Assembly: GCF_900177325.1 (NCBI RefSeq)
Contig: NZ_FXBL01000004.1
Coordinates: 4,464,001 to 4,528,000 of the forward strand
Reading direction: 5' to 3'
Source of the DNA: Mesorhizobium australicum
GTDB taxonomy: Bacteria; Pseudomonadota; Alphaproteobacteria; Rhizobiales; Rhizobiaceae
DNA length: 64,000 nucleotides
A model generated the notes under the pieces. That model ran no database searches and was not told the DNA's origin. It saw only the letters and a list, made by a program, of their open reading frames with translations. Of this stretch, positions 35,024 to 52,795 are shown in pieces. Positions within the stretch are counted from its first letter, which is position 1, and the number at the start of each line of letters is the position of its first letter. Position numbers and translations under genes: made by a program.

Positions 35024-35854
35024 ATGCCCCTCGATCCCCACCGACTGCTCAATCTGGAACTGCCGGTTCGCCGCTATTCCTACGAGGATCGCGAGCCGAT
35101 GCTCTATGCGCTGGCGGTAGGAGCGGGCGCCACCGACCTCGGCTTCGTCTATGAGCGCGATCTCAAGGTCATACCGAGCTTTGTGCAGGTCGCGGGCTAT
35201 GATGATTCCTGGCTCGGTGCCGGAGGCATTGACCTGCAGCATGTCGTCCACGGCAGTCTCGACATCGAATTCTTCGACTGCTTCGACGCGGCGGGCGTGG
35301 CCGAGATACGGACCCGGATCGCGGGCCTGAGCGACAAGGGCGAGGGCCGCGGCGGCATCGTGCATCAGCTGATGGAGATTTCGCAGCGCGGCCGCCCGGT
35401 GGCCAACAGCCTCTCCAGCCTCTTCGTGCGCGGCGCCGGCGGCTTCGGCGGCGACCGCGGCCGCCAGCCCGATGCCGTCGCCATGCCTGAAGGCGAGCCG
35501 CATGCTGTCGTCGAGGTCGGCACCGCCGCCAACCAGGCTGCCCTGTTCCGGCTGCTCGGCGACAGGAATCCACTCCATATCGATCCGGCATTCGCCAAGG
35601 CGGCCGGCTTCGAGACGCCGATTCTTCATGGCGCCGCGACCTTCGGCGTTGCCTGCCTGACCGTTCTCAAGACCTTCTGCGACGGGGAGCCGAGCCGGAT
35701 GAAACGCTTCGCCGCCCGCTTCTCGGGGCCCGTCTTCCCCGGCGAGACGCTTGTTTTCTCGTTTTGGCAGACAGGCACCGAGATCCGCTTTCGCGCGTCG
35801 GCCAAGGAGCGCAATTCGCCGGTGCTCGACGGCGGTCGCACGACGATCGGCTGA
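35024..35854 (+). CDS. MaoC family dehydratase ((R)-specific enoyl-CoA hydratase type)
   Basis: This 276-residue double-hotdog protein resembles the hydratase-2 domain of peroxisomal multifunctional enzyme. The N-terminal half contains YALAVGAGATDLGFVYE, typical of this group, and the C-terminal half has the catalytic hydratase motif GDRNPLHIDPAFAKAAGF with ILHG after it. It would add water to an enoyl-CoA to give an (R)-3-hydroxyacyl-CoA. The ATG at 35024 is preferred over 35000. It leads the cluster, followed by an SDR that could oxidise the hydroxyacyl product. A large open frame on the opposite strand is a shadow. Confidence 0.9.
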   Translation: MPLDPHRLLNLELPVRRYSYEDREPMLYALAVGAGATDLGFVYERDLKVIPSFVQVAGYDDSWLGAGGIDLQHVVHGSLDIEFFDCFDAAGVAEIRTRIAGLSDKGEGRGGIVHQLMEISQRGRPVANSLSSLFVRGAGGFGGDRGRQPDAVAMPEGEPHAVVEVGTAANQAALFRLLGDRNPLHIDPAFAKAAGFETPILHGAATFGVACLTVLKTFCDGEPSRMKRFAARFSGPVFPGETLVFSFWQTGTEIRFRASAKERNSPVLDGGRTTIG

Positions 35855-35892
35855 TCGCAACAACTTCCCAACACCAACAGGACATTCGCAGG

Positions 35893-36678
35893 ATGAGCTC
35901 ATCTGACTATTGGAGTTCGCGGCGCGCCATCGTCACGGCAGGCGCCTCGGGCATCGGACTGGCGATCGCGACGGCGCTGCGCGATGCGGGAACCAATGTC
36001 TGGGTCTGCGACATCGCCGAGGAGCAGCTCGCGCGGCCCGAGATCACCGACCGGGGAATCAAGGCGCGTCTCTGCGATGTGTCCGACGCGGCGTCGGTCA
36101 ACGCCTTTGTCGCTGAGGCGGCTGCCGACATGGGCGGCATCGACATCGTCATCAACAATGCCGGGATCGCCGGCCCTGCCGCACCGTTGCACGAACTCGA
36201 CTTCGAAGCGTGGAAGAAGACGTTCGACGTCAACGTGCACGGCCAGTTCCATGTCGCGCACGCGACGATTCCGCATCTCAAGGCGACCGGGCGGGGCGGC
36301 AGCATGGTCTGCATGGCCTCCGTCGCCGGCAAATACGCCTTTCCGCTGCGTTCGCCCTATGCAAGCTCGAAGGCCGCGGTGATCTCGATGGCCCGCTGCC
36401 TTTCGGTCGAGCTCGGCCCCGACCAGATCAGGGTCAATTCGATCGCGCCCGGCGTCGTCGCCGGCGACCGAATCCGCCGCGTCTTCACCGATCGCGCGGC
36501 CACCAAGGGCATCACGTACGAGGAAATGGAAGCACTGGCGCTCAGGGCCGTGTCGATGAAGACGATGGTCGAGCCGGACGAAATCGCCGCGCTGGTTCTT
36601 TATCTCTGCGGGCCGACGGGACGGCCGATCACCGGACAGTGCATGAGCATCTGCGGCGGACTGGAATATACGGAGTAA
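35893..36678 (+). CDS. short-chain dehydrogenase/reductase
   Basis: This 261-residue Rossmann-fold oxidoreductase has the cofactor motif TAGASGIG near the N-terminus, the NNAG motif, and a catalytic Ser with YASSK. An acidic residue after strand 2 (VCDIAEE) favours NAD(H). It likely oxidises the 3-hydroxyacyl-CoA or free hydroxy acid to the 3-keto compound, which the BKACE encoded 6 nt downstream would cleave. The start at 35893 lies 38 nt after the MaoC gene. Confidence 0.9.
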   Translation: MSSSDYWSSRRAIVTAGASGIGLAIATALRDAGTNVWVCDIAEEQLARPEITDRGIKARLCDVSDAASVNAFVAEAAADMGGIDIVINNAGIAGPAAPLHELDFEAWKKTFDVNVHGQFHVAHATIPHLKATGRGGSMVCMASVAGKYAFPLRSPYASSKAAVISMARCLSVELGPDQIRVNSIAPGVVAGDRIRRVFTDRAATKGITYEEMEALALRAVSMKTMVEPDEIAALVLYLCGPTGRPITGQCMSICGGLEYTE

Positions 36679-36684
36679 TCGATC

Positions 36685-37614
36685 ATGGCCGACAAGAAGA
36701 TCATCAGCTGCGCCATCACCGGCGCGACCCACACGCCCACCATGTCGCCCTACCTGCCGGTGACGCCCGACGCGATCATCGAGCAGGCCGTCGGGGCCGC
36801 GCAGGCCGGCGCGGCCATCCTCCATCTGCATGCCCGCGATCCGCAGACCCAGCGGCCCACGGCCGAGCTCGACATCTGGATGCACATCCTGAAGTCGATC
36901 AGCGCGCAGACCGACGCGGTCCTGAACATGACGACCGGCGGCTCGACCTTCATGTCGATCGAAGACCGCCTGCGCGCGCCGTTGGCCGCAGCCCCCGAAC
37001 TGTGCTCCTGCAACATGGGGTCGATGAACTTCGGCACCTACATGATGAAAGAGAAGTTCAAGGGCAAATGGAAGAACGACTGGGAGGAGGACTACCTCGA
37101 GGCCAGCCGCGGCGCGATCTTCCGCAACACCTTCGCCGACATCGAATACATCATGTCCAGTCTCGGCGAGAAGGGAACCCGCTTCGAGTTCGAGTGCTAC
37201 GATGTCGGCCACCTCTACAACCTCGCCCACATGCTCGACCGCGGCTTCGTCAAGCTGCCGATGTTCGTGCAGATCATCGTGGGCACGCTCGGCGGCATCG
37301 GACCGGGGCCGGAAAACCTCAACTTCATGAAGGAGACGGCCGATCGGCTGTTCGGCAAGGACTACCGCTGGTCGGTGCTGGCCGGCGGCAGGCACCAGAT
37401 GAACATGGCGACCATGGCCGCGACGATGGGCGGCAACGTCCGCGTCGGCCTGGAAGACAGCCTCTATGCCGGCAAGGGCAAGCTCGCGACCTCGAACGCC
37501 GAGCAGGTGCGGATGATCCGCACCGTCATGGAGAACCTGTCGATGGAGATCGCCTCGCCTGCCGAGGCGAGGCAGATGCTGGGTCTCAAGGGCGCGGACC
37601 AGGTGGCTTTCTGA
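36685..37614 (+). CDS. beta-keto acid cleavage enzyme (BKACE, DUF849)
   Basis: This 309-residue TIM-barrel zinc enzyme is of the Kce/BKACE family. It condenses a beta-keto acid with acetyl-CoA, giving acetoacetate and a CoA ester. The Zn ligands are seen in AILHLHARDP (about residues 45-54) with an N-terminal AITGATHTP segment; the C-terminal part has GGNVRVGLEDSLY, characteristic of the family. Members differ in the group on the keto acid (3-keto-5-aminohexanoate, dehydrocarnitine and others). It can stand in for a thiolase after the SDR step. A GC hairpin follows the gene. Confidence 0.92.
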   Translation: MADKKIISCAITGATHTPTMSPYLPVTPDAIIEQAVGAAQAGAAILHLHARDPQTQRPTAELDIWMHILKSISAQTDAVLNMTTGGSTFMSIEDRLRAPLAAAPELCSCNMGSMNFGTYMMKEKFKGKWKNDWEEDYLEASRGAIFRNTFADIEYIMSSLGEKGTRFEFECYDVGHLYNLAHMLDRGFVKLPMFVQIIVGTLGGIGPGPENLNFMKETADRLFGKDYRWSVLAGGRHQMNMATMAATMGGNVRVGLEDSLYAGKGKLATSNAEQVRMIRTVMENLSMEIASPAEARQMLGLKGADQVAF

Positions 37615-37629
37615 AATCGACGCGGGACC

Positions 37630-37658
37630 TCCGGCAGCGCCCGATGCGCGCTGCCGGA
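37630..37658. terminator. hairpin between convergent BKACE and IclR genes
   Basis: TCCGGCAGCGC (37630-37640) pairs perfectly with GCGCTGCCGGA (37648-37658) around a 7-nt loop in the 51-nt gap between convergent genes. It has no T tract, but the position is right for a bidirectional stop. Confidence 0.55.
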
Positions 37659-37665
37659 CGCAGCG

Positions 37666-38409
37666 TCAGTCGATACCGCCGAGCGCCTTGCTCAGCCGGT
37701 CGGCGTGATCGCGGACCGCTTTGCGGATCTTGTCGAGATGCGGCGGCTTGGCCCGGCTCGTCGGCAGCGAGATGCCGATGACCCCAAGCAGCGCGCCATC
37801 GACGCCGTGGATCGGTGCGGACACGCCGCTGACGCCGATCGCATACTCGTCATAGGCTTCCGCGACGCCCGTCTCCCTCGCCGCTTCGATCTCCTTGCGC
37901 AGGGCCGGCAGGGTCGTGATCGTCTTGTCGGTGAATTTGCGCAGGCGCGGCAGCTTGGGAAGCAGGTTTTCCATATCGCCCATCAGGAGCGCCTTGCCGA
38001 GGGACGAGCAATGGATCGGCGTGCGGCTTCCGAGCACAGACATGGTCTGCACCGCCTGGGCCGATTCGCGCTTGTCGATGATGACGACGTCCACGCCCTC
38101 CAGAACGGCCAGCACCGCCGTCTCCTCGATCTCGCGCTCCAGTTCCTCGAGATGCCGCCGGGTCCAGGCGCGCAGGTCGAAATTGCGGAAGGCGCGAACG
38201 CCGATCGCCCACATGCGCGTCGTCAGCATGTAGCGGCTGCTGTCACTTTCCTGGCGCACATAGCCCAGCTGAGACATCTTCTCGAGCAGACGATAGGTCG
38301 TGCTCTTGTTCATGTTCAGCGCACGCGACAGGTCGACCAGCTTCACCGGCTCTCCATAGGTCGACAGCAGCTCCAGTACCTTCAGCGCCTTCTCAACTGT
38401 AGTCGACAA
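37666..38409 (-). CDS. IclR family transcriptional regulator
   Basis: This 247-residue regulator has a winged helix at about 1-65 (LVDLSRALNMNKSTTYRLLEKM) and the IclR effector domain with RTPIHCSSLGKALL, typical of ligand binding at the Cys/Ser pocket. It probably controls the surrounding CoA-dependent cluster. It is convergent with the BKACE gene and in the same direction as the rhodanese gene upstream, with a 153-nt gap between them that holds nothing I recognise. Confidence 0.92.
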   Translation of the reverse strand: MSTTVEKALKVLELLSTYGEPVKLVDLSRALNMNKSTTYRLLEKMSQLGYVRQESDSSRYMLTTRMWAIGVRAFRNFDLRAWTRRHLEELEREIEETAVLAVLEGVDVVIIDKRESAQAVQTMSVLGSRTPIHCSSLGKALLMGDMENLLPKLPRLRKFTDKTITTLPALRKEIEAARETGVAEAYDEYAIGVSGVSAPIHGVDGALLGVIGISLPTSRAKPPHLDKIRKAVRDHADRLSKALGGID

Positions 38410-38562: not shown

Positions 38563-38961
38563 TCATTCCGGCATGTCCACACGGCCGCCGGCCGCCTTCC
38601 AGGCGCTGATGCCGCCGGCGATGTGGCGGACCGGCGAAAGGCCCATGTCCTGCGCCGTCTTTGCAGACAGCGCCGAGCGCCAGCCGGAGGCGCAGTAGAA
38701 GACGAAGGTCTTGTCCTGCTGGAAGACCTCCTTGGCGTAGGGGCTGTCCGGATCGATCCAGAATTCGAGCATGCCGCGCGGGCAATGGAACGCGCCGGGA
38801 ATCTTGCCGTCGCGCTTGAGTTCCCGCGGGTCGCGCAGGTCCACCAGCACATAGTCCTCATTGCCCAGAAGCGTGATCGCCGTAGCCGCGTCGATCGCTT
38901 CGACCTCTGCGTTCGCACGCTCCAACAGCGCCTTGTATCCGGTCGTGATCGTGGACGGCAT
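38563..38961 (-). CDS. rhodanese-like domain protein
   Basis: This 132-residue single-domain sulfurtransferase has a rhodanese fold with DYVLVDLRDPRE and the active-site loop FYCASGWRSA with the catalytic Cys. It moves sulfane sulfur from a donor to an acceptor thiol or cyanide. The ATG at 38961 has GAAGAG upstream. Its position beside a PLP C-S-lyase-type gene cluster suggests handling of sulfide or persulfide released from a substrate. It is divergent from the first acyl-CoA dehydrogenase gene. Confidence 0.9.
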   Translation of the reverse strand: MPSTITTGYKALLERANAEVEAIDAATAITLLGNEDYVLVDLRDPRELKRDGKIPGAFHCPRGMLEFWIDPDSPYAKEVFQQDKTFVFYCASGWRSALSAKTAQDMGLSPVRHIAGGISAWKAAGGRVDMPE

Positions 38962-39132
38962 CTTCTCTTCCTTTCCCGTTCCTCGTCGTTTTTCGCGCTC
39001 GTGAGCCACGGTAACAGACCCGTGGCCGCTTGACAGGCGCATCAAAATACAAAATCATAGTTCATATAATAAAACAACTTCCGGATCGGCCTCTCCCTGC
39101 ACGCCTCCGCATTCGACAAGGATTTCAGTGCC
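38962..39132. promoter_or_regulatory. AT-rich divergent promoter region, rhodanese / acyl-CoA dehydrogenase
   Basis: These 171 bases are AT-rich between 39036 and 39080 and contain TATAAT at 39065-39070, 63 nt before the acyl-CoA dehydrogenase start. TTGACA is at 39030-39035 but is 29 nt away, too far to be its -35. It presumably holds the main promoter of the coupled operon 39133-48187. Confidence 0.5.
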
Positions 39133-40290
39133 ATGCCCCCACTCCTGAGCGACGAGCAGACGATGATCGCGGAAGGCGTCCGCGCGTTCGTCCAGGCCGA
39201 ACTCCAGCCGCATGAGGCACTGGTGGAGAAGCTCGATTCGGTGCCGGACGACCTGTTTCGCGAGATCCAGAAGAAGGCGATCACCGCCGGCTACTACGCG
39301 CTCAACATGCCGGAGGAGCACGGCGGCGGCGGTCTCAACGCCAGCCAGCGCTGCGTGGCGGAGATCGAGTTCGGCCGCACCAGCCGGGCGCTCGCTGTCA
39401 TCTGCAACCGCCCCGCGCCGATCCTGAAATCATGCGTCGGCGACCAGATCGAGACCTATCTGAAGCCGGTAATCACCGGCGAGCGCTGGGAGTGCTTCGC
39501 GCTCACCGAGCCGGGCGCCGGGTCGGATGCGCGCGCCATCACCACGCGTGCCGTGCGCGACGGAGACGACTTCGTCATCAATGGCACCAAGCAGTTCATC
39601 ACCATGGCGATGCGGGCGGACTTCATCATTCTGTTCGCCGTGACCGGTATCGACAGCACCCCGAAGGGTGAAAGCAAGCGCATTACCGCCTTCCTCGTCG
39701 ACAAGGACACGCCCGGCATCGAGGTCACCCCGCTCGACGTCGTGTCGAATCGCGGCATGAAGTCCTGCATCATCTCCTTCACCGACGTGCGCGTGCCGGC
39801 GCGCAACATCCTCGGCGGCGAAGGCAATGGCTTCGGCATCGCCAAGAGCTGGATCTTCTCGGGCCGCGTCATGCTGGCGGCCAACTGCATCGGGCTTGCC
39901 GAGCGCGCCATGAAGATCGCGGCGGAATGGGCAAATACGCGCACCGCATTCGGACAGCCGATCGGCCGTTTCCAGGGCACCGCCTTCAAGCTCGCCGACA
40001 TGGCGATGGAGATCCACGCCACGCGGCTGATGGTGCTCGACGGCGCGGCCAAGATGGACGCCGGCACGATCACCCAGCGCGAGGCCTCGCAGGTCAACCT
40101 GTTTGGCTCGGAGATGGCCGGCCGCGTCACCGACAATGCGCTTCAGATCATGGGCGGCATGGGCATCACCAAGGACATGCCGCTGGAGCGCTTCTGGCGC
40201 GACGCACGCGTCGAGCGCATCTGGGAAGGCACCTCGGAGATCCATCGCGACATCATCTCCAAGGACGTACTGCGGGAGTTCGCCGCATGA
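39133..40290 (+). CDS. acyl-CoA dehydrogenase
   Basis: This 385-residue FAD enzyme introduces an alpha,beta double bond into an acyl-CoA and passes electrons to ETF. It has the N-terminal helical domain, the FAD motifs FALTEPGAGSD and TKQFITMA, the RTAFGQPIGRFQ segment, and the C-terminal catalytic region ERIWEGTSEIHR with the Glu base. It is the first gene of a coupled series. Its stop overlaps the next start (ATGA). The chain or ring oxidised is unknown. Confidence 0.94.
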   Translation: MPPLLSDEQTMIAEGVRAFVQAELQPHEALVEKLDSVPDDLFREIQKKAITAGYYALNMPEEHGGGGLNASQRCVAEIEFGRTSRALAVICNRPAPILKSCVGDQIETYLKPVITGERWECFALTEPGAGSDARAITTRAVRDGDDFVINGTKQFITMAMRADFIILFAVTGIDSTPKGESKRITAFLVDKDTPGIEVTPLDVVSNRGMKSCIISFTDVRVPARNILGGEGNGFGIAKSWIFSGRVMLAANCIGLAERAMKIAAEWANTRTAFGQPIGRFQGTAFKLADMAMEIHATRLMVLDGAAKMDAGTITQREASQVNLFGSEMAGRVTDNALQIMGGMGITKDMPLERFWRDARVERIWEGTSEIHRDIISKDVLREFAA

Positions 40291-41069
40291 GTGCCGACCA
40301 GCGCATCAAGGTCACGCGCAACGGGGCGATCCTCGAGATCCTGTTCGACCATCCGCCCGCTCATGCGGTGAACCAGAAGTTCAGCCACGACCTGACGGCC
40401 GCCATCCAGCTTCTGGAGGACGATCCTGATCTGAGGGTGGCGATCGTCTCGGCCACCGGCGACAGGATGTTCTCGGCCGGATGGGACCTGAAGGCCGTCG
40501 CCGCCGGCGAGACCGGCGAGGATTTCGGACCTTACGGGTTCATGGGCCTGCAACGCACGAAGATGTCGAAGCCGGTGATCGCCGCGGTGAACGGCCTTGC
40601 CGTCGGCGGCGGCTTCGAGTTCTCGCTTTTCGCGACCCTCGTCGTCTGTGCGCCGCACGTCGAATTCGGCCTGCCCGAGCTGCAGCGCGGCTTCATTCCG
40701 GAAGCCGGCGGCCTCTGGCGGGCGCATCGCCGCCTGCCGCACAACGTGGCCTCCGAACTGCTCCTCACCGGGCGCCGGCTCACCGCCGAAGAGGGCCTGC
40801 GCCTCGGCTTCGTCAACCGGATCGTACCGCGCGAGAGCCTGATGGACACCGCCCGCGAGATGGCGGCCGGCATCGTCGCGTCGGCGCCGCTCGCCATCGC
40901 CGCCTATCTCGAAGTGCTGCGCGAGGTCGAGACGCTCTCCGACGCCGAGGCTTTCCAAAAACTCTATTCGGGCCTGCCCGCCCGCGATCGCATGCGGGCC
41001 TCCGACGACTTCGGCGAAGGGCCGCGGGCCTTTGCCGAGAAACGCGCCCCGCAGTGGAAAGGACGTTGA
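40287..41069 (+). CDS. enoyl-CoA hydratase/isomerase family protein
   Basis: This 260-residue crotonase has the oxyanion-hole segment FSAGWDLKAVAAGE and the second half-site VNGLAVGGGFEFSLFATL, followed by EFGLPELQRGFIPEAGG, where the two Glu positions of hydratases are retained. This resembles CaiD-type and general hydratases. It hydrates the enoyl-CoA made by the acyl-CoA dehydrogenase. The start overlaps the upstream stop by four bases. The longer frame from 39927 is not used. Confidence 0.92.
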   Translation: MSADQRIKVTRNGAILEILFDHPPAHAVNQKFSHDLTAAIQLLEDDPDLRVAIVSATGDRMFSAGWDLKAVAAGETGEDFGPYGFMGLQRTKMSKPVIAAVNGLAVGGGFEFSLFATLVVCAPHVEFGLPELQRGFIPEAGGLWRAHRRLPHNVASELLLTGRRLTAEEGLRLGFVNRIVPRESLMDTAREMAAGIVASAPLAIAAYLEVLREVETLSDAEAFQKLYSGLPARDRMRASDDFGEGPRAFAEKRAPQWKGR

Positions 41070-41073
41070 ACAG

Positions 41074-42216
41074 ATGGATTTTGAACTCTCCGAACAGCAG
41101 AGGCTGATGCGGGACAGCCTGCGGTCGTTCCTGACGCGCGAATGCCCGATCGAATATGTCAGGGCATGCGACGAGGAGGAACGGTTTCCGTTCGAGCTCT
41201 ACGACAAGCTCGCCGCCGAAGGCTGGCTCGGCCTGCCAATCCCGGAAGCCTATGGCGGTATGGGCGGAAGCTGCACCGACCTCGCGGTCTTCCTCGAAGA
41301 GTTCGCCCGCCACTTCGAGGCCGGGGCCAACATCTTCTACACGACGATCGTCATCGCGACCGACGCCATCACCCATTTCGGCACCGAGGCGCAGCAGCGC
41401 GAGCTGCTGCCCAAGCTTGCCAAGGGCGAGATCCGCTTCGCCTTCTCGCTGTCGGAGCCGAACTCGGGTTCGGACGCGGCCAGCCTGCGCACACGGGCAG
41501 TGCTGGAGGGCGACGAGTGGGTGATCAACGGACAGAAGATGTTCTGCTCCTGCGCCCAGGAGGCCGACTACATCCTGCTGATGGCGCGCTCCGACGCGGA
41601 AGCGCCCAAGCACAAGGGCATCACCATGTTCCTGCTCGACCCGAAAACACCCGGAGTCGAGATCCGCAAGCTCAAGAAGCTTGGCCTCAAGCCGATGGAC
41701 CTGAACGAGATCTTCCTGTCGGACGTGCGCCTGCCGAAGGACGCCATCATCGGCACGGCGAACAATGGCTGGATGAACGCGCTGAAGACGCTCGACTACG
41801 AGCGCTGCTGCCTTTCGGCTGTCAATGTCGGCGCCGCGCAGACCGTGCTCGACAAGTCGGTCGCCTACACCAACGAGCGCGAGCAGTTCGGGCAGAAGAT
41901 CTCGAGCTTCCAGCTCACCCGCGCCAAGCTCGCCGACATGGACATGGAGATCGAGGCCGCCCGTCTCCTGCTCTACCGCAGCGCCAACCTCGTCGATCGG
42001 GGCATCCCGAACAACAAGGAGAGCGCGATGGCCAATCTCTATTCCTCCGAGACCTATGTCCGCGCCGCGCTCAACGGCATGCGCATGATGGGCGGCTGGG
42101 GCTATCTGATGGAATACGACATGCAACGCCACTTCCGCGATTCCAAGCTCGCCGAAATCGGCGGCGGCACGTCGGAGATCCTGCGCATCATCATCTCGCG
42201 AGAGATCACGAAGTGA
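41074..42216 (+). CDS. acyl-CoA dehydrogenase (second)
   Basis: This 380-residue FAD enzyme has FSLSEPNSGSDAASLRT and INGQKMFCSCA flavin motifs, the EQFGQKISSFQ segment and C-terminal GGGTSEILR. The usual C-terminal catalytic Glu (as in the first dehydrogenase, EGTSEI) is Gly here. A Glu at the isovaleryl-CoA-dehydrogenase position (LDYERCCL) may act instead. It is the second oxidation step or handles a branched or cyclic acyl chain. The ATG at 41074 has AAGGA upstream. Its stop overlaps the next GTG start. Confidence 0.93.
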   Translation: MDFELSEQQRLMRDSLRSFLTRECPIEYVRACDEEERFPFELYDKLAAEGWLGLPIPEAYGGMGGSCTDLAVFLEEFARHFEAGANIFYTTIVIATDAITHFGTEAQQRELLPKLAKGEIRFAFSLSEPNSGSDAASLRTRAVLEGDEWVINGQKMFCSCAQEADYILLMARSDAEAPKHKGITMFLLDPKTPGVEIRKLKKLGLKPMDLNEIFLSDVRLPKDAIIGTANNGWMNALKTLDYERCCLSAVNVGAAQTVLDKSVAYTNEREQFGQKISSFQLTRAKLADMDMEIEAARLLLYRSANLVDRGIPNNKESAMANLYSSETYVRAALNGMRMMGGWGYLMEYDMQRHFRDSKLAEIGGGTSEILRIIISREITK

Positions 42217-46047: not shown

Positions 46048-47723
46048 GCCTCCCCCGCATGACCGACGCAAGCCCCTCATCTCCGTTCTGGCCGCCCGGC
46101 CTGGACTTCCATCTCCCGGTTGCACCCGGGAACGCGTTTCATAACCTGCTCAATGCCGCCCGGCGCGATCCATCGCACCCTGCCCTGCTGTACTACGGCG
46201 CCGTCACCAGCTACGGGAAGCTGCTCGCCGATGCGGAAGCGCTTGCCGGCTACCTCCAGAACCGCTGCGGCGTGCGCAAGGGCGACCGCGTGCTGATCGA
46301 CATGCAGAACTGCCCGCAGTTCGTCACCGCCTTCCAGGCCGTGCTGCGCGCGGATGCAGTCGTCGTGCCGGTCAATCCGATGAACATGGCGGCCGAACTC
46401 GAGCACTACATCGCCGACAGCGGCGCTTCCGTCGCCATCATCGGCGACGAGCTCGTCGAGCGCTTCGCCTCGCTGGCCAACCTGCCCGAGCATGTGATCG
46501 TCGCGCGTTATGCGGACGCCGCACCCGTGGAGTGCAAGTACCAGCTACCCGAGGTGATGCTGCGAGCACCGGAGGAGTTACCGGCGAACCGCTTCATCAG
46601 ATTCGACGATGCAATCGCCGCCGGAGAACAGCCCTCTGCGATGACGGCCGGCGACGACGACCTCGCCGTGATGCCCTACACCTCGGGCACGACGGGACAT
46701 CCCAAGGGTTGCATGCAGCCGCACCGCTCGCTGAAGTTCACCGCCGTTGCGCAGGCGATATGGTACGGCTTCGACCATAACAGCGTCCTCACCGCCTTCA
46801 TGCCGCTCTTCCACGTCGCCGGCATGCAGGCGTCGATGGGCGGCGGCCTCTATGCCGGTGCGACGCTGCTGTTGCTCACCCGATGGAACCGCGACCTCGT
46901 CGCGCCGCTGTTCATCGAACACGGCGTCACGTTCTGGTCGGCCGCGCCGACCATGATCGTCGACGTGATGGCCGGAGACCAGTTCGACGAACGCGCCTTC
47001 GAGAAGCTCACAGTGCTCACCGGCGGCGGCTCCTCGATGCCGACCGCGCTCGCCGAGCAACTGGAGAGGCGCTATGGGCTACGCTTCTGCGAGGGTTATG
47101 GCCTGTCCGAGACGATGTCGGCGACCCATATCAACCCGACCGCGCGCCCCAAGCCGCAATGCCTCGGCATTCCGATCTTCGACACCTATTCGCTGATCGT
47201 GAAGCCGGAGACGACCGAAGAACTGCCGAATGGCGAGGTCGGCGAGTTGCTGATCGCCGGTCCGCAGCTGATGCGCGGCTACTGGAATCATCCTGAAGCC
47301 GACCGCGACGCCTTCGTCACCATCGGTGGACGCCGCTACCTGCGCACCGGCGACATGGCCTACCGCGACGACGAGGGCTACTATTTCATCGTCGACCGGC
47401 TGAAACGCATGATCAACGTGTCGGGCTACAAGGTCTGGCCGGCGGAATGCGAGGCGCTGCTCTATCGCCATCCCGACGTGCAGGAATGCTGCGTCATCGC
47501 CGTCTCCGATCCCTATCGCGGTGAATCGGTGAAGGCGTTCGTCACCCTGCGGCCGCAGGCGCGCGGTCGGATCAGCGAGGACGACATCATCAGCTTCGCC
47601 CGCGGCGTCATGGCCGCCTACAAGGTGCCGCGCGCCGTCGCCTTCGTCGACCAGCTTCCGCGTTCCGGCAGCAACAAGATCGACTGGCGCAAGCTTCAGG
47701 AACAGGAGCAGGCAAGAGCGTGA
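46044..47723 (+). CDS. acyl-CoA synthetase (AMP-forming, fatty-acid-CoA ligase family)
   Basis: This 559-residue adenylate-forming ligase has the P-loop YTSGTTGHPKG, the aromatic motif EGYGLSETM, the RTGDMAY Asp motif, the hinge DRLKRMINVSGYKV and a C-terminal catalytic Lys in GSNKIDWRKL. It activates a carboxylate as acyl-CoA for the dehydrogenases and hydratases of the same operon. The ATG at 46044 overlaps the carbamoylase stop (ATGA); an internal ATG at 46059 is possible. The acid activated is unknown. Confidence 0.94.
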   Translation: MSLPRMTDASPSSPFWPPGLDFHLPVAPGNAFHNLLNAARRDPSHPALLYYGAVTSYGKLLADAEALAGYLQNRCGVRKGDRVLIDMQNCPQFVTAFQAVLRADAVVVPVNPMNMAAELEHYIADSGASVAIIGDELVERFASLANLPEHVIVARYADAAPVECKYQLPEVMLRAPEELPANRFIRFDDAIAAGEQPSAMTAGDDDLAVMPYTSGTTGHPKGCMQPHRSLKFTAVAQAIWYGFDHNSVLTAFMPLFHVAGMQASMGGGLYAGATLLLLTRWNRDLVAPLFIEHGVTFWSAAPTMIVDVMAGDQFDERAFEKLTVLTGGGSSMPTALAEQLERRYGLRFCEGYGLSETMSATHINPTARPKPQCLGIPIFDTYSLIVKPETTEELPNGEVGELLIAGPQLMRGYWNHPEADRDAFVTIGGRRYLRTGDMAYRDDEGYYFIVDRLKRMINVSGYKVWPAECEALLYRHPDVQECCVIAVSDPYRGESVKAFVTLRPQARGRISEDDIISFARGVMAAYKVPRAVAFVDQLPRSGSNKIDWRKLQEQEQARA

Positions 47724-48187
47724 GCGACATCGACAGCACGAGCCAGATCTGGCTGGAGGACTTCGTCCCCGGAACCGTCCTCACCTCGCCTTCCAGGCTC
47801 GTGACGATCGAAGACATCGACACCTGGGCGGCGCTCACCGGCGAACGGCATCCCGTCCACATGGACGACGCCTTCGCGCAGGCGGCCGGCTTTCGCGGAC
47901 GCGTTGCGCACGGGCTTTTCAGCCTTGCCCTGGTCGAGGGGCTGAAGGCCGAAATCGGTGTGTTCGAGCGCAGCGTCATCGCCTCGCTCGGCTGGAACAA
48001 TGTCAAGTTCTCCGCGCCGCTCTATCCCGGCGACAACGTGCATCTGCGGCTCACCCTTGTCTCGAAACGGTCGAGTTCGAAGCCCGGAAAAGGTATCGCC
48101 GAGGAGCGCGGAGTGCTCGTCAAGGAGGACGGAACCGAGGTCGTCAGCGGCGACCACATCGTCATTCTTCTGTCCCGGCCGGAATGA
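47720..48187 (+). CDS. MaoC family dehydratase
   Basis: This 155-residue single hotdog protein has the hydratase-like segment GERHPVHMDDAFAQAAGF followed by RVAHGLFSL. The consensus Asn of the hydratase motif is His here, but the catalytic His and helix are kept. It probably hydrates an enoyl-CoA with (R) stereochemistry. The GTG start at 47720 overlaps the ligase stop (GTGA). It is the last gene of the coupled run. Confidence 0.9.
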   Translation: MSDIDSTSQIWLEDFVPGTVLTSPSRLVTIEDIDTWAALTGERHPVHMDDAFAQAAGFRGRVAHGLFSLALVEGLKAEIGVFERSVIASLGWNNVKFSAPLYPGDNVHLRLTLVSKRSSSKPGKGIAEERGVLVKEDGTEVVSGDHIVILLSRPE

Positions 48188-48255
48188 TCGTTCCATTTGC
48201 GCGAAAGTCGGCGGACATTGACTTCTCTTTTCTCCACTCCTAATCAGACAGCGAG

Positions 48256-48298
48256 ATTTCCGATTTCCGGAAGTTTATTTCCGTTCGAAATTCGGAAA
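48256..48298. promoter_or_regulatory. cluster of ATTTCCG/CGGAAA repeats upstream of the IclR gene
   Basis: ATTTCCG occurs at 48256-48262, 48263-48269 and 48277-48283, and its inverse CGGAAA at 48293-48298. TTCCGGAA (48265-48272) is a perfect palindrome. TTTCCG-N9-CGGAAA spans 48278-48298. The array lies 52-94 nt before the IclR start and is a likely autoregulatory operator. Confidence 0.5.
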
Positions 48299-48349
48299 AT
48301 GCGCCGGATGCCCGGCGATCTCGCTGTCCTGAAAAGGAGTCGGCTGTTC

Positions 48350-49105
48350 ATGTCGGATCAGGAAGATTCACCGCTCGGCCGCGCCCTGCGGATCATCGAG
48401 CTTCTGGCCGGGGCGCCCGAAGGCATGACACTCAGCGAGATCGCCGCCGCGACCGACCTCGTCATGACCACGGCGCATCGCCAGCTCGCCACCCTCACCG
48501 GCCTCGGTGTCGTGCGCAAGACCCGCGCCAAGACCTTCGTCGTCGGCGAGAGGATGGTCCGTGTCGCGGCCCGGTTGTCCGGCGGGGCGGATGTCGCCAC
48601 GCTTGCCGAACCGGTGCTGCGCGAGCTCGCCGACAAGTTTGGCGAGACGGCATTCCTTGCTCGTCTGGACGGGACGCATGTGCAACTGCTCGCCACCGCG
48701 CTGCCCGATTCCAAGGGTCAGGCCTATGCCCAGCCCGGCCGCGACATGCCGCTTTACGCAGCTGCGTCCGGCAAGATCCTGCTGGCGCTACAGGACGAGG
48801 CGTTCATCAGCCAGTATCTGAAGCTGAAGCGCCACGCCTACACACCGAACACGAAGACGTCGGAGGAAGATATTCGCGCCGACATCGCGTTGGCGCGGGC
48901 GCGCCATATCGCCGTCTGCGACAACGAATTCGATCCCGGCATCCTCTCCTACGCCTGCGCCGTTCTCGATCCGCGCACCAACGAGCCCTATGCGATGGCC
49001 ATCTTCGGCCTGGCCGAGCGCTTTGGAACCGTCAGTTCCGCCAATGTCGAGACGCAGCTCATCAATGCAGCGGAACGGTTGCGCCGCGGTTTGCAGGCGC
49101 ATTGA
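48350..49105 (+). CDS. IclR family transcriptional regulator (second)
   Basis: This 251-residue regulator has a winged helix at about 10-75 (LSEIAAATDLVMTTAHRQLATL) and an IclR effector domain with PGRDMPLYAAASGKILLAL. The ATG at 48350 has AAGGAG upstream and begins the family homology; a longer frame from 48197 crosses the operator-like repeats. It sits between the coupled operon and the crotonase/aminotransferase genes and could control both. Confidence 0.91.
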   Translation: MSDQEDSPLGRALRIIELLAGAPEGMTLSEIAAATDLVMTTAHRQLATLTGLGVVRKTRAKTFVVGERMVRVAARLSGGADVATLAEPVLRELADKFGETAFLARLDGTHVQLLATALPDSKGQAYAQPGRDMPLYAAASGKILLALQDEAFISQYLKLKRHAYTPNTKTSEEDIRADIALARARHIAVCDNEFDPGILSYACAVLDPRTNEPYAMAIFGLAERFGTVSSANVETQLINAAERLRRGLQAH

Positions 49106-49164: not shown

Positions 49165-49213
49165 CTCTGCAATTGTCGTCCCCTGACGGCTTTTCCGATG
49201 CTGGAGATGCGGC

Positions 49214-50551
49214 GTGGCTGGTGCCGAATGGCCCCGAATTGGCAGGTTGGACGACCCGGAGCCGGTCGTTTCTCCCCTGTGGGGCCGCTATCTCTCGGCG
49301 CACTGGCTGGATGACTGTCTCCTCGTGACGCTCGACGACCCTTCGGGTCGCGCCAACAAGACCTCCGACCTGTTCAAGACCGAGTTCGACGCGCTGATGC
49401 ATGCGCTCGAGACCGGCCTGGCGCCCGCCGGATTGCTGTTCCGGTCGGCCAAGCCGTCCTTCGGCGTCGGCGGCGACATCGGCCAGGTTCTTGGCTATGC
49501 GCAGCGCGGCATCGAAGCCAGCCTGGCCGATTCCGAGGCGATCAAATCGCTCTTCCGCCGCCTGGAAAGACTTCCCTGTCCTTCCGTCGCACTGCTGGAG
49601 GGCACGGCCGCCGGCGGCGGCTGGGAACTTGCGCTCGCCTGCAATGCGCGGTTCTGCATCGCGGGCGGCTCCATCAGGCTCGGGCTGCCGGAAGTCGAGT
49701 TCGGCCTCGTTCCCGGCGCCGGCGGCATGCTCAGGCTGCCGCATCTGGTCGGGCTGGAAAGCGCGGGCCGGCTGATCGCGGGCGCGGCCATGCTCTCACC
49801 AGAGGAGGCATTCGCCCACGGTCTCCTGACCGGACTGGCCGCCGACGGCGCGGCCCTGCTGAAGGCCGGGCTTGACTGGCTCGGACAGCGGCCTGATCAG
49901 CGCCGCCCATGGGACCGCGCCGGCTACGCCATCGTCCCCTCCCTGTCCTACGACGGCCCCGTCGCGGGCGCGCCCGGCGGGCAGGCCGCACCCCGCGCAC
50001 TGTCGGCGCTGGCCACCATTGCAGAGGTGCCCTTCGACGAAGCTGGACGCATCGAGAGCCGCTGCTTCGCCGAATGCGCCACGTCGAACGAGGCCCGCGC
50101 GCTCGTCGGCCTCGGCTTCTACGACCGCAACCGGCTTCGCCATGCGACGGACGACGAGCGCGCCGCGCTGGCACGGGTCGGCCGGCGCCTGGGCTGCGTG
50201 AAAGAGCGGCTGACCCTGCCGTCGGCAACCGGCCCGGACGACGAAACACCTGACGAGGCGGAATACCTGGCCATCGCCCAAGCCGCCGAGGCGCTCCGTA
50301 TCCTCGGCGAGGAGAGCGCCTTGCCGGCGGCGATCGTCAACGTCGCCTCCGTCGAGCAGGCGGGTTTTCCGCGCCGGACCGGCGGTGCGCTGCGCTTCAT
50401 CGCCGGGATGGGCACGCAGGCTTTCCTGGCCCGCGCCGAAACGCTCGCGCGCCGCTTCGGCGCTCCGTTCCATATCGACATCGCCGCGGACGACGCCGCA
50501 CGCCTGCTCTCGGACGCCGAGAGCCGAAATCATCAAGGGGAAACAGGATGA
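49214..50551 (+). CDS. FadB/FadJ-like crotonase lacking the NAD-binding dehydrogenase domain
   Basis: This 445-residue protein has an N-terminal crotonase domain (about 20-210). It shows an oxyanion-hole segment FGVGGDIGQV, Glu 138 in GGGWELAL and Glu 160 in LGLPEVEFGLVPGAGG, the two catalytic Glu of FadB hydratases. Residues around 285-310 resemble the FadB linker, and the C-terminal ~100 residues resemble the last 3-hydroxyacyl-CoA dehydrogenase helical domain (GFPRRTGGALRFI). The Rossmann NAD domain that normally lies between is absent. It can hydrate but should not oxidise hydroxyacyl-CoA. The GTG start has GGAG upstream. Confidence 0.88.
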   Translation: MAGAEWPRIGRLDDPEPVVSPLWGRYLSAHWLDDCLLVTLDDPSGRANKTSDLFKTEFDALMHALETGLAPAGLLFRSAKPSFGVGGDIGQVLGYAQRGIEASLADSEAIKSLFRRLERLPCPSVALLEGTAAGGGWELALACNARFCIAGGSIRLGLPEVEFGLVPGAGGMLRLPHLVGLESAGRLIAGAAMLSPEEAFAHGLLTGLAADGAALLKAGLDWLGQRPDQRRPWDRAGYAIVPSLSYDGPVAGAPGGQAAPRALSALATIAEVPFDEAGRIESRCFAECATSNEARALVGLGFYDRNRLRHATDDERAALARVGRRLGCVKERLTLPSATGPDDETPDEAEYLAIAQAAEALRILGEESALPAAIVNVASVEQAGFPRRTGGALRFIAGMGTQAFLARAETLARRFGAPFHIDIAADDAARLLSDAESRNHQGETG

Positions 50552-51840
50552 AACGACTTCTCAGCACCGGTCTCAACGCGGGCTCCGACACGGTTGTCGA
50601 GGTTGTCGGCGGCAAGGGCGCCTGGTTCGAACTGGCCGACGGGCGCAAGGTGCTGGACGGCTCGAACTCCGCCGGCGTGCTCGGCCACGCGCATCCCGAG
50701 ATGGTCGAAACGATCCGGCGCGCCGCCGAGTATCCGGCGGTGAGCGAGGGCTGGTTCTTCCGCGAGCGCGAGAAGGCCGCCGAGGACCTGATCGACATCG
50801 CCTTCGCGGAGGAAAAGGATTGGGTCGGCGCGGTCCGTTTCGGCCTGTCCGGCAGCGAGATCAACGATCTGGCCCTGTCGCTCGCGCAGGCTGTCACCGG
50901 CCGCTCGGCGATCGCGACCCGCGAGCGCGCCTATCACGGCCTGACGGGGCTCGCGCGCGAGGTGACCGTGCAGCCGCAATGGCATGGCGGGCTGTCGAAG
51001 ATGTCGGGCGGCGTCAGCCTGCCTGCCCGCTCCGCCGACACGCGCATCATCGCGGCTCCGACCGGCTCGCTGTGGGGCGAACGCGTTCGTGCCCTTGAGC
51101 CGGAAGGCCAGGCCGAGGTCGAGGCGAAGCTGGCGGGGACCGCGGCGGTCATCATCGACTACAGCCAGGGCGGCATCTATCACGACGCCGGCTGGCAGGA
51201 CATGGTCGCCTCCGCCACACGCAACACGCAGACCCTGTGGATCGCCGACGAGGTCATCACCGGCGGCGGCCGCAGCGGCCGCTGGTTCGCGTTCCAGGGC
51301 GGCGAGAGCCGCCCTGACATCGTCACGATGGGCAAGTCGCTCGCCGGCGGCATCGCCCCGATCGGCGCCGTGATCCTGTCGAAGGAGATGGTCGAAAAAC
51401 TCGACGGCGCCGCGTGGCAGGCCTACAGCACCTTCCGCGGCCATCCGATCGCGATGGCCGGCGTGCGCGCCTATCTTCGCGTCATCAAGCACGACGGGCT
51501 GATCGAGCGCGCCGCGGAACTCGCGGCGATAATCGCGCCGCGCCTCGTCGCGATCGCCGAGAGGCATCCGAGCGTCGCCAGGGTCGATGGCCGCGGCATG
51601 CACTGGACGATCGAGCTGCACGGCCCCCACTGGAAGGACTGGCGCGCCGATACGACGGCCGTTCCGGTCGCCTCGCGCGTCTCCGGCCGGGCCTTCGACA
51701 ATGGCGTGGTGATTGGCACCAGCGGCGAGGAGACATCGCTGTTCCTGGCGCCGCCGCTGATCGTCTCGGATGCCGAGATGAACCAGATCCTCGACGTGCT
51801 CGACGATGCGCTGTCGGTCGCCGACGAAGCGCTCGCCTAA
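50548..51840 (+). CDS. class III aminotransferase
   Basis: This 430-residue PLP enzyme is of the omega-amino acid / glutamate-1-semialdehyde aminomutase-like group. The Asp that binds the pyridine nitrogen lies in TLWIADEVITGGGRSG, and the Schiff-base lysine is at about 263 (VTMGKSLAGGIAPIGA). The family moves amino groups of beta- or omega-amino acids, or shifts them within a substrate. It overlaps the crotonase stop by four bases. It may accept the amino acid liberated by the carbamoylase. Confidence 0.92.
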   Translation: MKRLLSTGLNAGSDTVVEVVGGKGAWFELADGRKVLDGSNSAGVLGHAHPEMVETIRRAAEYPAVSEGWFFREREKAAEDLIDIAFAEEKDWVGAVRFGLSGSEINDLALSLAQAVTGRSAIATRERAYHGLTGLAREVTVQPQWHGGLSKMSGGVSLPARSADTRIIAAPTGSLWGERVRALEPEGQAEVEAKLAGTAAVIIDYSQGGIYHDAGWQDMVASATRNTQTLWIADEVITGGGRSGRWFAFQGGESRPDIVTMGKSLAGGIAPIGAVILSKEMVEKLDGAAWQAYSTFRGHPIAMAGVRAYLRVIKHDGLIERAAELAAIIAPRLVAIAERHPSVARVDGRGMHWTIELHGPHWKDWRADTTAVPVASRVSGRAFDNGVVIGTSGEETSLFLAPPLIVSDAEMNQILDVLDDALSVADEALA

Positions 51841-51872
51841 ACCGAAATCACAATCTTCAAGGGAGAGATTCG

Positions 51873-52238
51873 ATGAGCGAAGAAGACCAGATCCGCACCG
51901 TCCTCAAGGACTATTTCGACGGCCTCTATTTCGGCGACATGACGCGCTTCTCAAGCGCCTTCCATCCCGCCTGCCGCCTGTTCACCGTGGCTGACGGCAC
52001 GGTGCAGACCATCGACTACGCGCCCTATATGGAGCGCTGCGCCGGACGCAAGCCGCCGGTCGAAAGCGGCGAACCGCAAGTGGCCGAGATCATCGAACTG
52101 ACCGTCTCGACCTCCGACACCGCCCACGCACGCGTCCGCGACGCCTTTCCGCCGCGCACCTTCGTCAACGAACTCAGCCTGGCAAAATCCGAAGGCTCCT
52201 GGAAAATCGTCTCCAAGCTCTACCACGCCTTCGGTTGA
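51873..52238 (+). CDS. NTF2-like protein (SnoaL/lumazine-binding type)
   Basis: This 121-residue cone-fold protein opens EEDQIRTVLKDYFDGLYFGD, followed by FHPACRLF and a closing WKIVSKLYHAF, as in DUF4440/putative lumazine-binding NTF2-like proteins. The family is catalytically diverse and the role here is unknown. AAGGGAGAG precedes the ATG; it lies 32 nt after the aminotransferase gene in the same transcript. Confidence 0.85.
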   Translation: MSEEDQIRTVLKDYFDGLYFGDMTRFSSAFHPACRLFTVADGTVQTIDYAPYMERCAGRKPPVESGEPQVAEIIELTVSTSDTAHARVRDAFPPRTFVNELSLAKSEGSWKIVSKLYHAFG

Positions 52239-52290
52239 TCCCCTGGCCTGATCCGGCCCGTAAGATCTCGGCATGCTCAGGAGGAAGCTA

Positions 52291-52330
52291 GACGTTCTGG
52301 TTCTGGCCGCTCGGCCCGAACCAAAACGTC
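52291..52330. terminator. long imperfect hairpin between convergent genes
   Basis: GACGTT-CT-GGTTC-T-GGCC pairs with GGCC-C-GAACC-AA-AACGTC around a four-base loop, a symmetrical 40-nt structure. A second repeat CGATCA-N6-TGATCG is at 52353-52370, just before the next stop codon. Together they separate the convergent NTF2-like and carboxymuconolactone-decarboxylase-family genes and probably end both transcripts. Confidence 0.55.
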
Positions 52331-52372
52331 AGGCAGTCCGGATCATATCAATCGATCAGCACAGTGATCGGT

Positions 52373-52774
52373 TCAATCGTAAGCCTTCATTTCCGTCAGA
52401 ACCTCGTTCGCAGCCTTGAAGGCATCGAGGCCGGCAGGGATGCCGCAATAGACGGTGGCGTGCAGGAGAACTTCCTTGATCTCCTCCACGCTCACGCCGT
52501 TGTTGATGGCGCCACGCACATGGAGTTTGACCTCGGCGGCGCGATTGAGCGCCGTGAGCATGGCGAGGTTCAGCATGCTGCGCGTTTTCAGATCGAGCGT
52601 GTCGCGACCCCAGGCATAGCCCCAGCACCACTCGGTCGTAATGTGCTGGAAGGCCATCATGAAATCGTTCGACGCATTGATCGACCGATCGACATATTCG
52701 GAGCCGAGAACCTGCCGGCGCAGGGCAAGCCCCTCGGTAAACAGGTCTCCGACCGTCTTGTCCTGCGTTGTCAT
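52373..52774 (-). CDS. carboxymuconolactone decarboxylase family protein
   Basis: This 133-residue all-alpha CMD-family protein has the LHVRGAINNGVSVEEIKEVLLHATVYCGIPAG segments typical of PcaC-like proteins, where the His and Glu of the active site are present. Members include 4-carboxymuconolactone decarboxylase, but many are of unknown activity. The ATG at 52774 has GAGGA five nt upstream; an ATG at 52798 is an alternative. It is divergent from the GntR regulator, with a predicted operator between them. Confidence 0.88.
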   Translation of the reverse strand: MTTQDKTVGDLFTEGLALRRQVLGSEYVDRSINASNDFMMAFQHITTEWCWGYAWGRDTLDLKTRSMLNLAMLTALNRAAEVKLHVRGAINNGVSVEEIKEVLLHATVYCGIPAGLDAFKAANEVLTEMKAYD

Positions 52775-52795
52775 TGGGATCCTCTTGTTCTTTGA

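Follow-up and report, generated by a model that had tools for sequence, protein, structure and literature searches.

Bacterial catabolism of biotin was described in Pseudomonas in the 1960s-70s: the vitamin is activated with CoA and beta-oxidised to bisnor- and tetranorbiotin, and the route passes through sulfoxides. We know of no gene cluster for it, and none was found in open-licence PMC papers. The Hyu clusters for hydantoin utilisation consist of HyuA, HyuB and HyuC, and in carnitine-type degradation with a beta-keto acid cleavage enzyme (BKACE), an acyl-CoA dehydrogenase, a crotonase and BKACE occur together. Here we describe a block of 24 genes whose gene families, conserved order, oxide-reductase linkage, catalytic-base residues and conserved operator-like sites suggest that it may act as one regulon in importing and degrading a carboxylic acid that contains both a cyclic urea and a thioether. 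Biotin, with its sulfoxide and its chain-shortened forms, is the likeliest such acid, a reading to which we give slightly less than an even chance.

Extent and conservation of the gene block

The window is the whole stretch analysed, 64,000 nt of the Mesorhizobium australicum genome (GCF_900177325.1, NZ_FXBL01000004.1, positions 4,464,001 to 4,528,000; G000). The block spans positions 25653-52238 and contains the following features, with strand in brackets:

25653..26486 (-): OppF-type ABC ATPase (PF00005 and oligo_HPY), left end of the block
26483..27343 (-): OppD-type ABC ATPase (PF00005 and oligo_HPY)
27343..28185 (-): OppC-type permease (PF00528 and OppC_N)
28189..29217 (-): OppB-type permease (PF00528)
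29318..31096 (-): family 5 solute-binding protein (PF00496, 275 bits), true start probably nearer 31000
30981..32567 (-): HyuB, ATP-dependent hydantoinase/oxoprolinase family (PF02538, 565 bits)
32564..34801 (-): HyuA, ATP-dependent hydantoinase/oxoprolinase family (PF01968, PF05378), domain beginning ~80 residues in
34855..34955 (no strand): facing copies of the operator-like repeat TTTCATTATTTGA in the divergent promoter of hyuA and maoC1
35024..35854 (+): MaoC1, two-domain hydratase-2 type enoyl-CoA hydratase (PF01575, PF22622)
35893..36678 (+): SDR, FabG-like 3-hydroxyacyl dehydrogenase (PF13561; PRK12826, 232 against a cut-off of 222)
36685..37614 (+): BKACE (PF05853; NF053538, 512.5 bits, cut-off 430)
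37666..38409 (-): IclR1 regulator (PF01614, PF09339)
38563..38961 (-): single-domain rhodanese (PF00581)
39062..39074 (-): operator-like repeat in the rhodanese/ACAD1 divergent promoter
39133..40290 (+): ACAD1, acyl-CoA dehydrogenase (PF00441 and others), MCAD/SCAD-type base (WEGTSE)
40287..41069 (+): ECH1, crotonase with both glutamates, as read from the sequence (PF00378, 180 bits)
41074..42216 (+): ACAD2, acyl-CoA dehydrogenase, Gly in place of the MCAD base, Glu in LDYER
42213..43397 (+): Cys/Met-family PLP enzyme, candidate C-S lyase (PF01053, 432 bits)
43394..44803 (+): DHPase, dihydropyrimidinase/D-hydantoinase (TIGR02033, 437.2 bits, cut-off 393.25)
44803..46047 (+): M20, N-carbamoyl-L-amino-acid hydrolase-like (TIGR01879, 333.3 bits, cut-off 204)
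46044..47723 (+): acyl-CoA ligase, AMP-binding (PF00501; PRK08314, 765 bits, cut-off 705)
47720..48187 (+): MaoC2 enoyl-CoA hydratase (PF01575)
48197..49105 (+): IclR2 regulator (PF01614), start uncertain
49214..50551 (+): ECH2, FadB-like hydratase (ECH Pfam domain only, without the NAD-binding domain)
50548..51840 (+): AT3, class III aminotransferase-fold PLP enzyme (PF00202, 194 bits)
51873..52238 (+): SnoaL/NTF2-like protein (PF12893, Lumazine_bd_2), right end of the block

The preliminary description had placed the cluster at 35024..52774, wrongly at both ends. The left end, common to the block in relatives, takes in OppFDCB, the binding protein and HyuBA, an importer and hydantoinase that its inventory had missed. 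The right end follows the PF12893 gene, also omitted from its list, and gene 52373-52798 lies outside, because DNA similarity to two genus relatives stops at 52232-52241.

A synteny search proposed in the preliminary description found the gene combination in conserved order in other genomes, indicating that the block is more than a chance neighbourhood. Two congeneric species (G300 and G303; three of seven genus genomes, including the source) carry it in collinear form, as do, over contiguous stretches, Pseudolabrys (G306) and Gemmobacter (G305) MAGs, so that gene order is identical across different genera. Partial or reduced versions were found in three further genomes. There are thus eight carriers, several of them distantly related, and the block was otherwise rare in the searched samples. 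The 29 kb contig of G725 has no ECH1, M20, BKACE, SDR or MaoC, and HyuAB, ECH2, AT3 and SnoaL are all absent from the 40 kb read in G474; in the stretches read of both genomes, AT3 is missing and DHPase is present. The gene bioB was not found over the cut-off in any of the eight carriers, which is uninformative, as it exceeds the cut-off in just 37 of the family's 199 genomes.

Predicted functions of the block genes

All the activities named in the preliminary description (ligase, acyl-CoA dehydrogenases, hydratases, SDR, BKACE, hydrolases, PLP enzymes and rhodanese) were recovered with Pfam and NCBIfam models. The left arm adds a complete Opp/Dpp-type ABC importer and the ATP-dependent hydantoinase HyuAB. 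The binding protein is similar to peptide- and opine-type binders, its closest solved chains being a peptide-type binding protein (8upi) and AgaA (6hlx). HyuAB was rejected as caprolactamase CapAB (alpha model 468/1000 bits for HyuA, beta model 246/1000 bits for HyuB, both below cut-off).

In the acyl-CoA branch, BKACE passes the NF053538 model, but neither the lysine-fermentation nor the 3-oxoadipate models. The two glutamates of ECH1 are presumably the crotonase catalytic positions. ACAD1 and ACAD2 have opposite catalytic-base positions, invariant in all seven genomes aligned; each of the five solved relatives with a displayed alignment carries Glu where ACAD2 carries Gly, and IVD chains were also among the matches listed. 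We take the Glu of LDYER in ACAD2 to be the base position of the IVD/LCAD type (helix G). According to a preprint (PMC10925408), within the known family only IVD and LCAD have their base there, and LCAD accepts branched or bulky acyl-CoAs. ECH2 was rejected as a full FadB family member, as the 3-hydroxyacyl-CoA dehydrogenase NAD-binding domain is missing (Pfam). This short type accounts for 26 of 120 database clusters among those listed, the window's own included, and no PF02737 is given for the short homologues P0006-P0031.

For the ureide, the nearest PDB entry to DHPase is D-hydantoinase 1yny (329 bits), and M20 is nearer to L-carbamoylase (3n5f, 239 bits) than to beta-ureidopropionase (beta-alanine synthase 1r3n, 160 bits). 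Ergothioneine utilisation was discarded, with ErtD (247.5/650 and 210.9/600) and ErtE (349.8/520) models all below their curated scores. The Cys/Met PLP enzyme is closest to cystathionine and methionine gamma-lyases in the PDB; it could not be assigned to either, as no cut-off was reached among the best 25 of 46 NCBIfam models (met_gam_lyase best, 379.5/549.7). It is absent at the G304 locus, with no match at E<=1e-60 in that incomplete MAG, and off the contig of G725, which has only a 36% homologue elsewhere; G305 has only a 33% homologue, and its block contig ends before the place of the gene. AT3 is nearest to transaminases 5g09/5g2p, then to isoleucine 2-epimerases and others, and a SnoaL gene also lies 3' of AT3 at L036, L037 and L038.

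A linked oxide reductase

In five of the eight carriers (G300, G303, G306, G474 and G725) the block contains or adjoins a DMSO-reductase/BisC-type S/N-oxide reductase, at four different positions and in more than one clade of the tree; in G000 the sole match is ~3.2 Mb away. Under a rough uniform-placement model, the chance of linkage in at least five of six assessable genomes is ~3e-10. A cytoplasmic, BisC-like enzyme would have no export signal; judged by eye from predicted starts, the five on-cluster copies begin either with the domain itself or no more than a few dozen residues ahead of it. TIGR00509 (bisC_fam) was the top model for the two copies scanned, by at least 260 bits, with scores of 900.4 (G474) and 987.6 (G725) below the cut-off of 1017.55. 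Biotin sulfoxide and methionine sulfoxide are both substrates of E. coli and Salmonella BisC, a reductase of this superfamily (PMC7759655). These sub-threshold scores, the similarity of the G474 copy to DMSO reductase 1eu1, its closest solved relative, and the clustering of E. coli BisC, TorZ and TorA apart from all eight copies in the tree mean that the reductase does not point specifically to biotin sulfoxide. The preliminary proposal that a CoA-dependent route acts on an acid with ureide and sulfur fits the gene content, and the linkage independently supports a thioether substrate.

Substrate candidates

From gene content, the substrate is probably a thioether-ureide acid in general. The combination of carboxylate chain, thioether and ureide points to biotin or biotin sulfoxide; to our knowledge, biotin is the best-known natural compound uniting a carboxylate chain, a sulfoxide-forming thioether and a cyclic urea.

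The same chemistry could serve another sulfur-containing ureide or hydantoin acid, such as an S-carboxyalkyl-cysteine or methionine-type hydantoin or a thiohydantoin, which we consider possible, if on the unlikely side. A sulfur amino-acid hydantoin would need a hydantoinase, an L-carbamoylase and a Cys/Met PLP enzyme, one block holds two hydantoinase types (HyuAB and DHPase), and the reductase belongs to a family of S/N-oxide reductases for which several substrates are described. However, the CoA ligase, two dehydrogenases and four hydratases would be superfluous for simple amino-acid hydantoins, and besides biotin we know of no common natural acid of this kind with a sufficiently long acyl chain.

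A sulfur-free ureide or dihydropyrimidine acid is improbable. DHPase, M20, the class III aminotransferase and BKACE would form a sensible chain through a beta-keto acid, the PLP enzyme would catalyse a non-sulfur elimination, as the carriers lacking it at the locus or on the contig would allow, and the reductase, whose family includes N-oxide reductases, would act on an N-oxide; but the carbamoylase is nearer to the L-type than to beta-ureidopropionase, G474 and G725 keep DHPase without AT3 in the stretches read, and no dihydropyrimidine dehydrogenase was found by Pfam among the 24 genes.

Both divergent promoters share one operator-like motif. Exact copies of the hyuA/maoC1 repeat also occur in G300, G303 and G306, and the rhodanese/ACAD1 repeat is kept with 1-2 mismatches in G300, G303, G306 and G474. 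Several transcription units, two IclR regulators and the joint absence of HyuAB, ECH2, AT3 and SnoaL from G474 would suit a composite of independent co-travelling operons, but this motif, the order shared across genera and the coding overlaps at six of seven gene boundaries from 39133 to 48187 make it very improbable, as is a biosynthetic pathway, since the importer and hydrolases indicate catabolism.

A putative route for biotin

A route chemically and stereochemically consistent with biotin can be written from the block; we infer its step order, all its intermediates and the assignment of each hydratase. The Opp-type importer would bring the substrate in, the S/N-oxide reductase, where present, would regenerate the thioether, and the ligase would form the CoA ester. 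Two rounds by ACAD1, a MaoC or crotonase hydratase, the SDR and BKACE, standing in for a thiolase, would shorten the valerate chain to tetranorbiotinyl-CoA. ACAD2 may then desaturate the ring at C4-C3a, and hydration at C3a would give a hemiaminal, which would collapse to 4-ureido-3-oxothiolane-2-carboxyl-CoA, so that the urea ring would open without a hydrolase. The direct opening of the cyclic urea by dihydropyrimidinase, as first suggested, is chemically awkward; a better fit would be for dehydrogenation and hydration to open it and for a hydantoin to be hydrolysed afterwards. Crotonase-type ring cleavage would yield N-carbamoyl-S-carboxymethyl-L-cysteine or the matching 5-substituted hydantoin. 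Biotin is 3aS,4S,6aR and, by stereochemistry derived by hand, the R configuration at C6a would become that of L-cysteine. DHPase (and HyuAB) would open the hydantoin, M20 would strip off the carbamoyl group, and C-S cleavage by the Cys/Met PLP enzyme would release pyruvate, ammonia and thioglycolate.

HyuAB, ECH2, AT3 and SnoaL are superfluous to this route, and this, like the absence of the C-S lyase from two carriers, counts against biotin. So do the gene-poor G725 contig, the likeness of the binding protein to peptide- and opine-type binders and the distance of the G000 reductase match from the block. It is doubtful that the block holds the genes by which bacteria mineralise biotin as such, with the urea ring opened by an IVD-type acyl-CoA dehydrogenase and a hydratase on tetranorbiotinyl-CoA instead of a hydrolase, and the remainder dismantled as N-carbamoyl-S-carboxymethyl-L-cysteine by hydantoinase, L-carbamoylase and C-S lyase.

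Comparison with described systems

Many microbes and algae require outside biotin. If the biotin reading is true, the block would reveal who removes the vitamin, make its turnover readable from metagenomes and include new ring-opening chemistry; for an old biochemical observation to which we know of no genes, it offers a small set of enzymes to assay.

Compared with the FadB/FadJ trifunctional alpha subunit, ECH2 lacks the NAD-binding dehydrogenase domain. The acyl-CoA dehydrogenase, crotonase and BKACE trio resembles carnitine-type degradation, but the block also has ureide and sulfur enzymes. With reductive pyrimidine catabolism it shares a dihydropyrimidinase, a carbamoylase and a class III aminotransferase, but it has CoA enzymes, a carbamoylase nearer to the L-alpha-amino-acid type and no dihydropyrimidine dehydrogenase. 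Like Hyu clusters, it encodes HyuA- and HyuB-family proteins and an M20 enzyme of the L-carbamoylase type, but it lacks a hydantoin racemase and adds the acyl-CoA branch, a second hydantoinase that does not depend on ATP, and the Cys/Met PLP enzyme. Its likeness to classical biotin catabolism, which is defined by metabolites only, would lie in CoA activation, beta-oxidation and sulfoxide intermediates.

Content and extent of the block

The stretch analysed (G000:C4:4464001-4528000) belongs to a genome of 5.86 Mb in four contigs, and Pfam and NCBIfam scans identified all the enzyme families named in the preliminary description. That description had placed the cluster at 35024..52774; its core stands, while the unit is redrawn to 25653-52238, because DNA similarity to two other species of the genus spans 25684-52241 (G300) and 25687-52232 (G303). 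The gene at 52373-52798 was dropped as a block member, since similarity to the relatives stops before it. A synteny search for the gene combination, proposed earlier, showed the same order from the importer gene OppF to SnoaL in both species (tblastn, blastn). From 39133 to 48187, six of seven gene boundaries overlap in coding sequence (ECH1, for example, starts at 40287, before the acyl-CoA dehydrogenase gene ACAD1 ends at 40290), as expected of a single operon. Neither the Rfam scan (gathering thresholds) nor the tRNA scan gave a hit.

Outside the shared block, window positions 19552-24529 hold an Asp/Glu/hydantoin racemase adjoining a spermidine/putrescine-type ABC transporter; a GntR regulator lies at 24771. 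To the right, 52373-60309 holds a PcaC-like carboxymuconolactone decarboxylase, a GntR regulator, two SDRs, a beta-lactamase-fold protein and TRAP transporter genes, all beyond the point where DNA similarity to the two other species of the genus ends.

The motif TTTCATTATTTGA was found in both divergent promoters, at 34855 (exact), 34943 (one mismatch) and 39062 (two mismatches). In a scan of six relatives, an exact copy was conserved in G300, G303 and a Pseudolabrys MAG (G306), and copies with one or two mismatches were found in a Gemmobacter MAG (G305) and the partial or reduced carriers G474 and G304. The operator pattern occurs six times in the window against 2.8 expected (4/100 shuffles reached six), a count that is not independent since the pattern had itself been chosen by inspection of the window. 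IclR1 likely reads the TTTCATTATTTGA sites. No BioR-type sites were among the matches listed for the window.

Conservation and rarity

The block is a real, conserved catabolic unit that is rare in the samples searched. ECH2 (49214-50551), a short form of FadB-like hydratase without the dehydrogenase domain, was chosen as a distinctive marker gene. The short form accounted for 26/120 of the database clusters listed, its own included, and for 4/80 of the kept genome loci, the other 76 being partial FadB-like matches at 31-35%. With five candidates scored per genome, only its own genome gave a full-length match among 297 genomes of the order, and 126 others gave partial-length matches, all of at most 119 bits. 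Within the genus, ECH2 was present in three of seven genomes; among named relatives, the closest one carrying the block is a MAG that bears the name Mesorhizobium sp. (L035, the same genome as G301/G303), whose ECH2 is 84% identical. The dihydropyrimidinase (DHPase) was found at E<=1e-130 in 5/394 family genomes and 2/385 class genomes, its own counted in both, and the second acyl-CoA dehydrogenase (ACAD2) at E<=1e-160 in its own genome only, among 398 genomes of the phylum. The rarity holds for these samples, since the searches of order, family, class and phylum used strict limits and scored no more than the top four or five candidates of each genome. The plasmid collection gave no match for ECH2, ACAD2 or DHPase at strict limits (1e-30, 1e-100 and 1e-130).

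In G306 the order OppC-OppB-SBP-HyuB-HyuA, MaoC1-SDR-BKACE, IclR1-rhodanese and ACAD1-ECH1-ACAD2-CysMet-DHPase-M20 is intact on one contig, at 61-92% identity, with OppD-OppF on a separate contig, and in G305 the stretch from OppD to BKACE is intact as far as the contig end. ECH2, the class III aminotransferase AT3 and SnoaL are grouped together in three loci (L036, L037 and L038). In L036 and L038 the ligase adjoining ECH2 is inverted and 47-49% identical to that of the window, against 79-80% for the neighbouring AT3, suggesting that the activating enzyme may have been replaced. Two pairs of handles, G304 and G556 (identical hit contigs) and G301 and G303, are one genome each and were counted once.

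Reduced versions delimit what the carriers share. G474 retains the importer, BKACE, SDR, MaoC1, IclR1, rhodanese, ACAD1, ECH1, ACAD2, CysMet, DHPase, M20, ligase and MaoC2, with no HyuAB, ECH2, AT3 or SnoaL within the 40 kb read. The 29 kb contig of G725 retains the importer, the ligase, an IclR gene (35%), DHPase, ACAD1 and ACAD2, and G304 is without CysMet between ACAD2 and DHPase. Two different dehydrogenations and a hydantoinase thus recur in every carrier for which that part of the block was available, and form the predicted shared core. The ligase was also present in every carrier whose ligase position was readable. After the G474 block lie genes resembling, by eye, nucleoside uptake and salvage genes (cytidine deaminase- and phosphorylase-like; L140, joined coordinates 26787-35952).

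Predicted activities of the core enzymes

The two dehydrogenases differ at the catalytic base. In ACAD1 the WEGTSE motif supplies a Glu and FSGR a Gly; in ACAD2 the arrangement is reversed, with Gly in GGGTSE and Glu in LDYER, and these residues are invariant in seven genomes for each enzyme. In all five printed alignments of ACAD2 with solved relatives, its Gly stands opposite Glu and its Glu opposite Gly or Thr; isovaleryl-CoA dehydrogenase chains were among the matches listed, and the five alignments are with other chains. The first position (Glu of WEGTSE) is that of the MCAD base. The second (Glu of LDYER) we take to be the base that IVD and LCAD carry on helix G. According to a preprint, a base at the helix-G position is found in LCAD and IVD only, and LCAD accepts branched and bulky acyl-CoAs (PMC10925408). 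This pattern would fit the oxidation first of a straight chain and then of a ring-borne acyl-CoA substituted at the beta position.

DHPase is closest to D-hydantoinases (1yny, 329 bits). For M20 the best match is an L-carbamoylase (3n5f, 239 bits), ahead of beta-alanine synthase at 160 bits; together the two enzymes would convert 5-substituted hydantoins to L-alpha-amino acids. The gene preceding them has a sulfur amino-acid lyase fold. In G725 a CobW-like GTPase (motif, by eye; L142, about 10860-11860) adjoins the hydantoinase and is perhaps its metal chaperone.

An associated S/N-oxide reductase

A molybdopterin protein lies inside the block in G474 (760 residues) and G725 (807 residues). 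The best model for both is TIGR00509 (bisC_fam), at 900 and 988 bits, below its cut-off of 1017.55 and at least 260 bits ahead of the next model; among solved structures, the G474 protein is closest to a DMSO reductase. This protein was used as query against nine handles (eight distinct genomes), and the neighbourhoods of the matches were read. A homologue lies on the same strand about 110 bases past SnoaL in G300, adjoining OppF in G303, and about 90 bases past OppF in G306, so that the gene is in or beside the block in five of eight distinct carriers, at four different places. The sole match in G000, at C4:1253370, is not at the block. The linkage estimate excludes G304 and G305 because their reductase pieces sit on short contigs where no block gene was found, and it scores G000 as unlinked. 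Linkage in five or more of the six assessable genomes then has a probability of about 3e-10 under a rough model, in which placement within 5 kb of a 27 kb block is uniform and independent and the clustering of catabolic genes is ignored.

The block-linked copies are not one clade, the label requiring at least two changes on the tree, and those of G303 and G306, both adjoining OppF, fall in different groups. All five start at or shortly before the domain (by eye), as expected of a cytoplasmic enzyme. According to PMC7759655, biotin sulfoxide and methionine sulfoxide are both reduced by the BisC enzyme in E. coli and Salmonella. Since E. coli BisC, TorZ and TorA group away from all eight copies on the tree, the name BisC is not earned, and the protein is assigned by homology to the S/N-oxide reductase class. 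A second mini-cluster common to G000 and G474 (L152 6345-9632; L156 6737-10042) holds an S/N-oxide reductase, a short gene and a rhodanese 57-58% identical to that of the window.

Candidate substrate and proposed ring-opening mechanism

The substrate is quite probably some thioether-ureide acid; as a single compound, biotin is the most favoured, at slightly short of an even chance. No bioB was found over the cut-off in the eight carriers, an absence that was dropped as evidence because, with bioB in 37/199 family genomes, it has a probability of about 0.19 by chance. A plain reductive pyrimidine pathway was considered and rejected, a beta-lactam route was rejected by reasoning only, and the ergothioneine and caprolactam pathways were rejected on scores far under cut-off. 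Classical metabolite work exists on bacterial biotin catabolism; no gene cluster for it was found in the open-licence literature, which covers neither bioRxiv preprints nor the majority of subscription papers. PMC9106636 deals with biotin sulfoxide and bisnorbiotin in humans.

For biotin, we infer a ring-opening mechanism that is putative at every step. In tetranorbiotinyl-CoA the carboxyl is on thiolane C4, and C3a, bearing a urea nitrogen, is the beta carbon. Dehydrogenation at C4-C3a and hydration at C3a would give a hemiaminal expected to collapse, which would release one of the urea nitrogens and produce a ureido-ketone. Cleavage of C3a-C4 would then yield N-carbamoyl-S-carboxymethylcysteine, and the activities for the subsequent steps would be encoded in the block. 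The product would be R, of the L-cysteine series, because C6a, which is R in biotin, would retain the priority order N > CH2S > C > H (worked by hand from the name of biotin). The proposed C3a-C4 cleavage would proceed in the manner of BadI-type crotonases, which cleave cyclic beta-keto acyl-CoAs.
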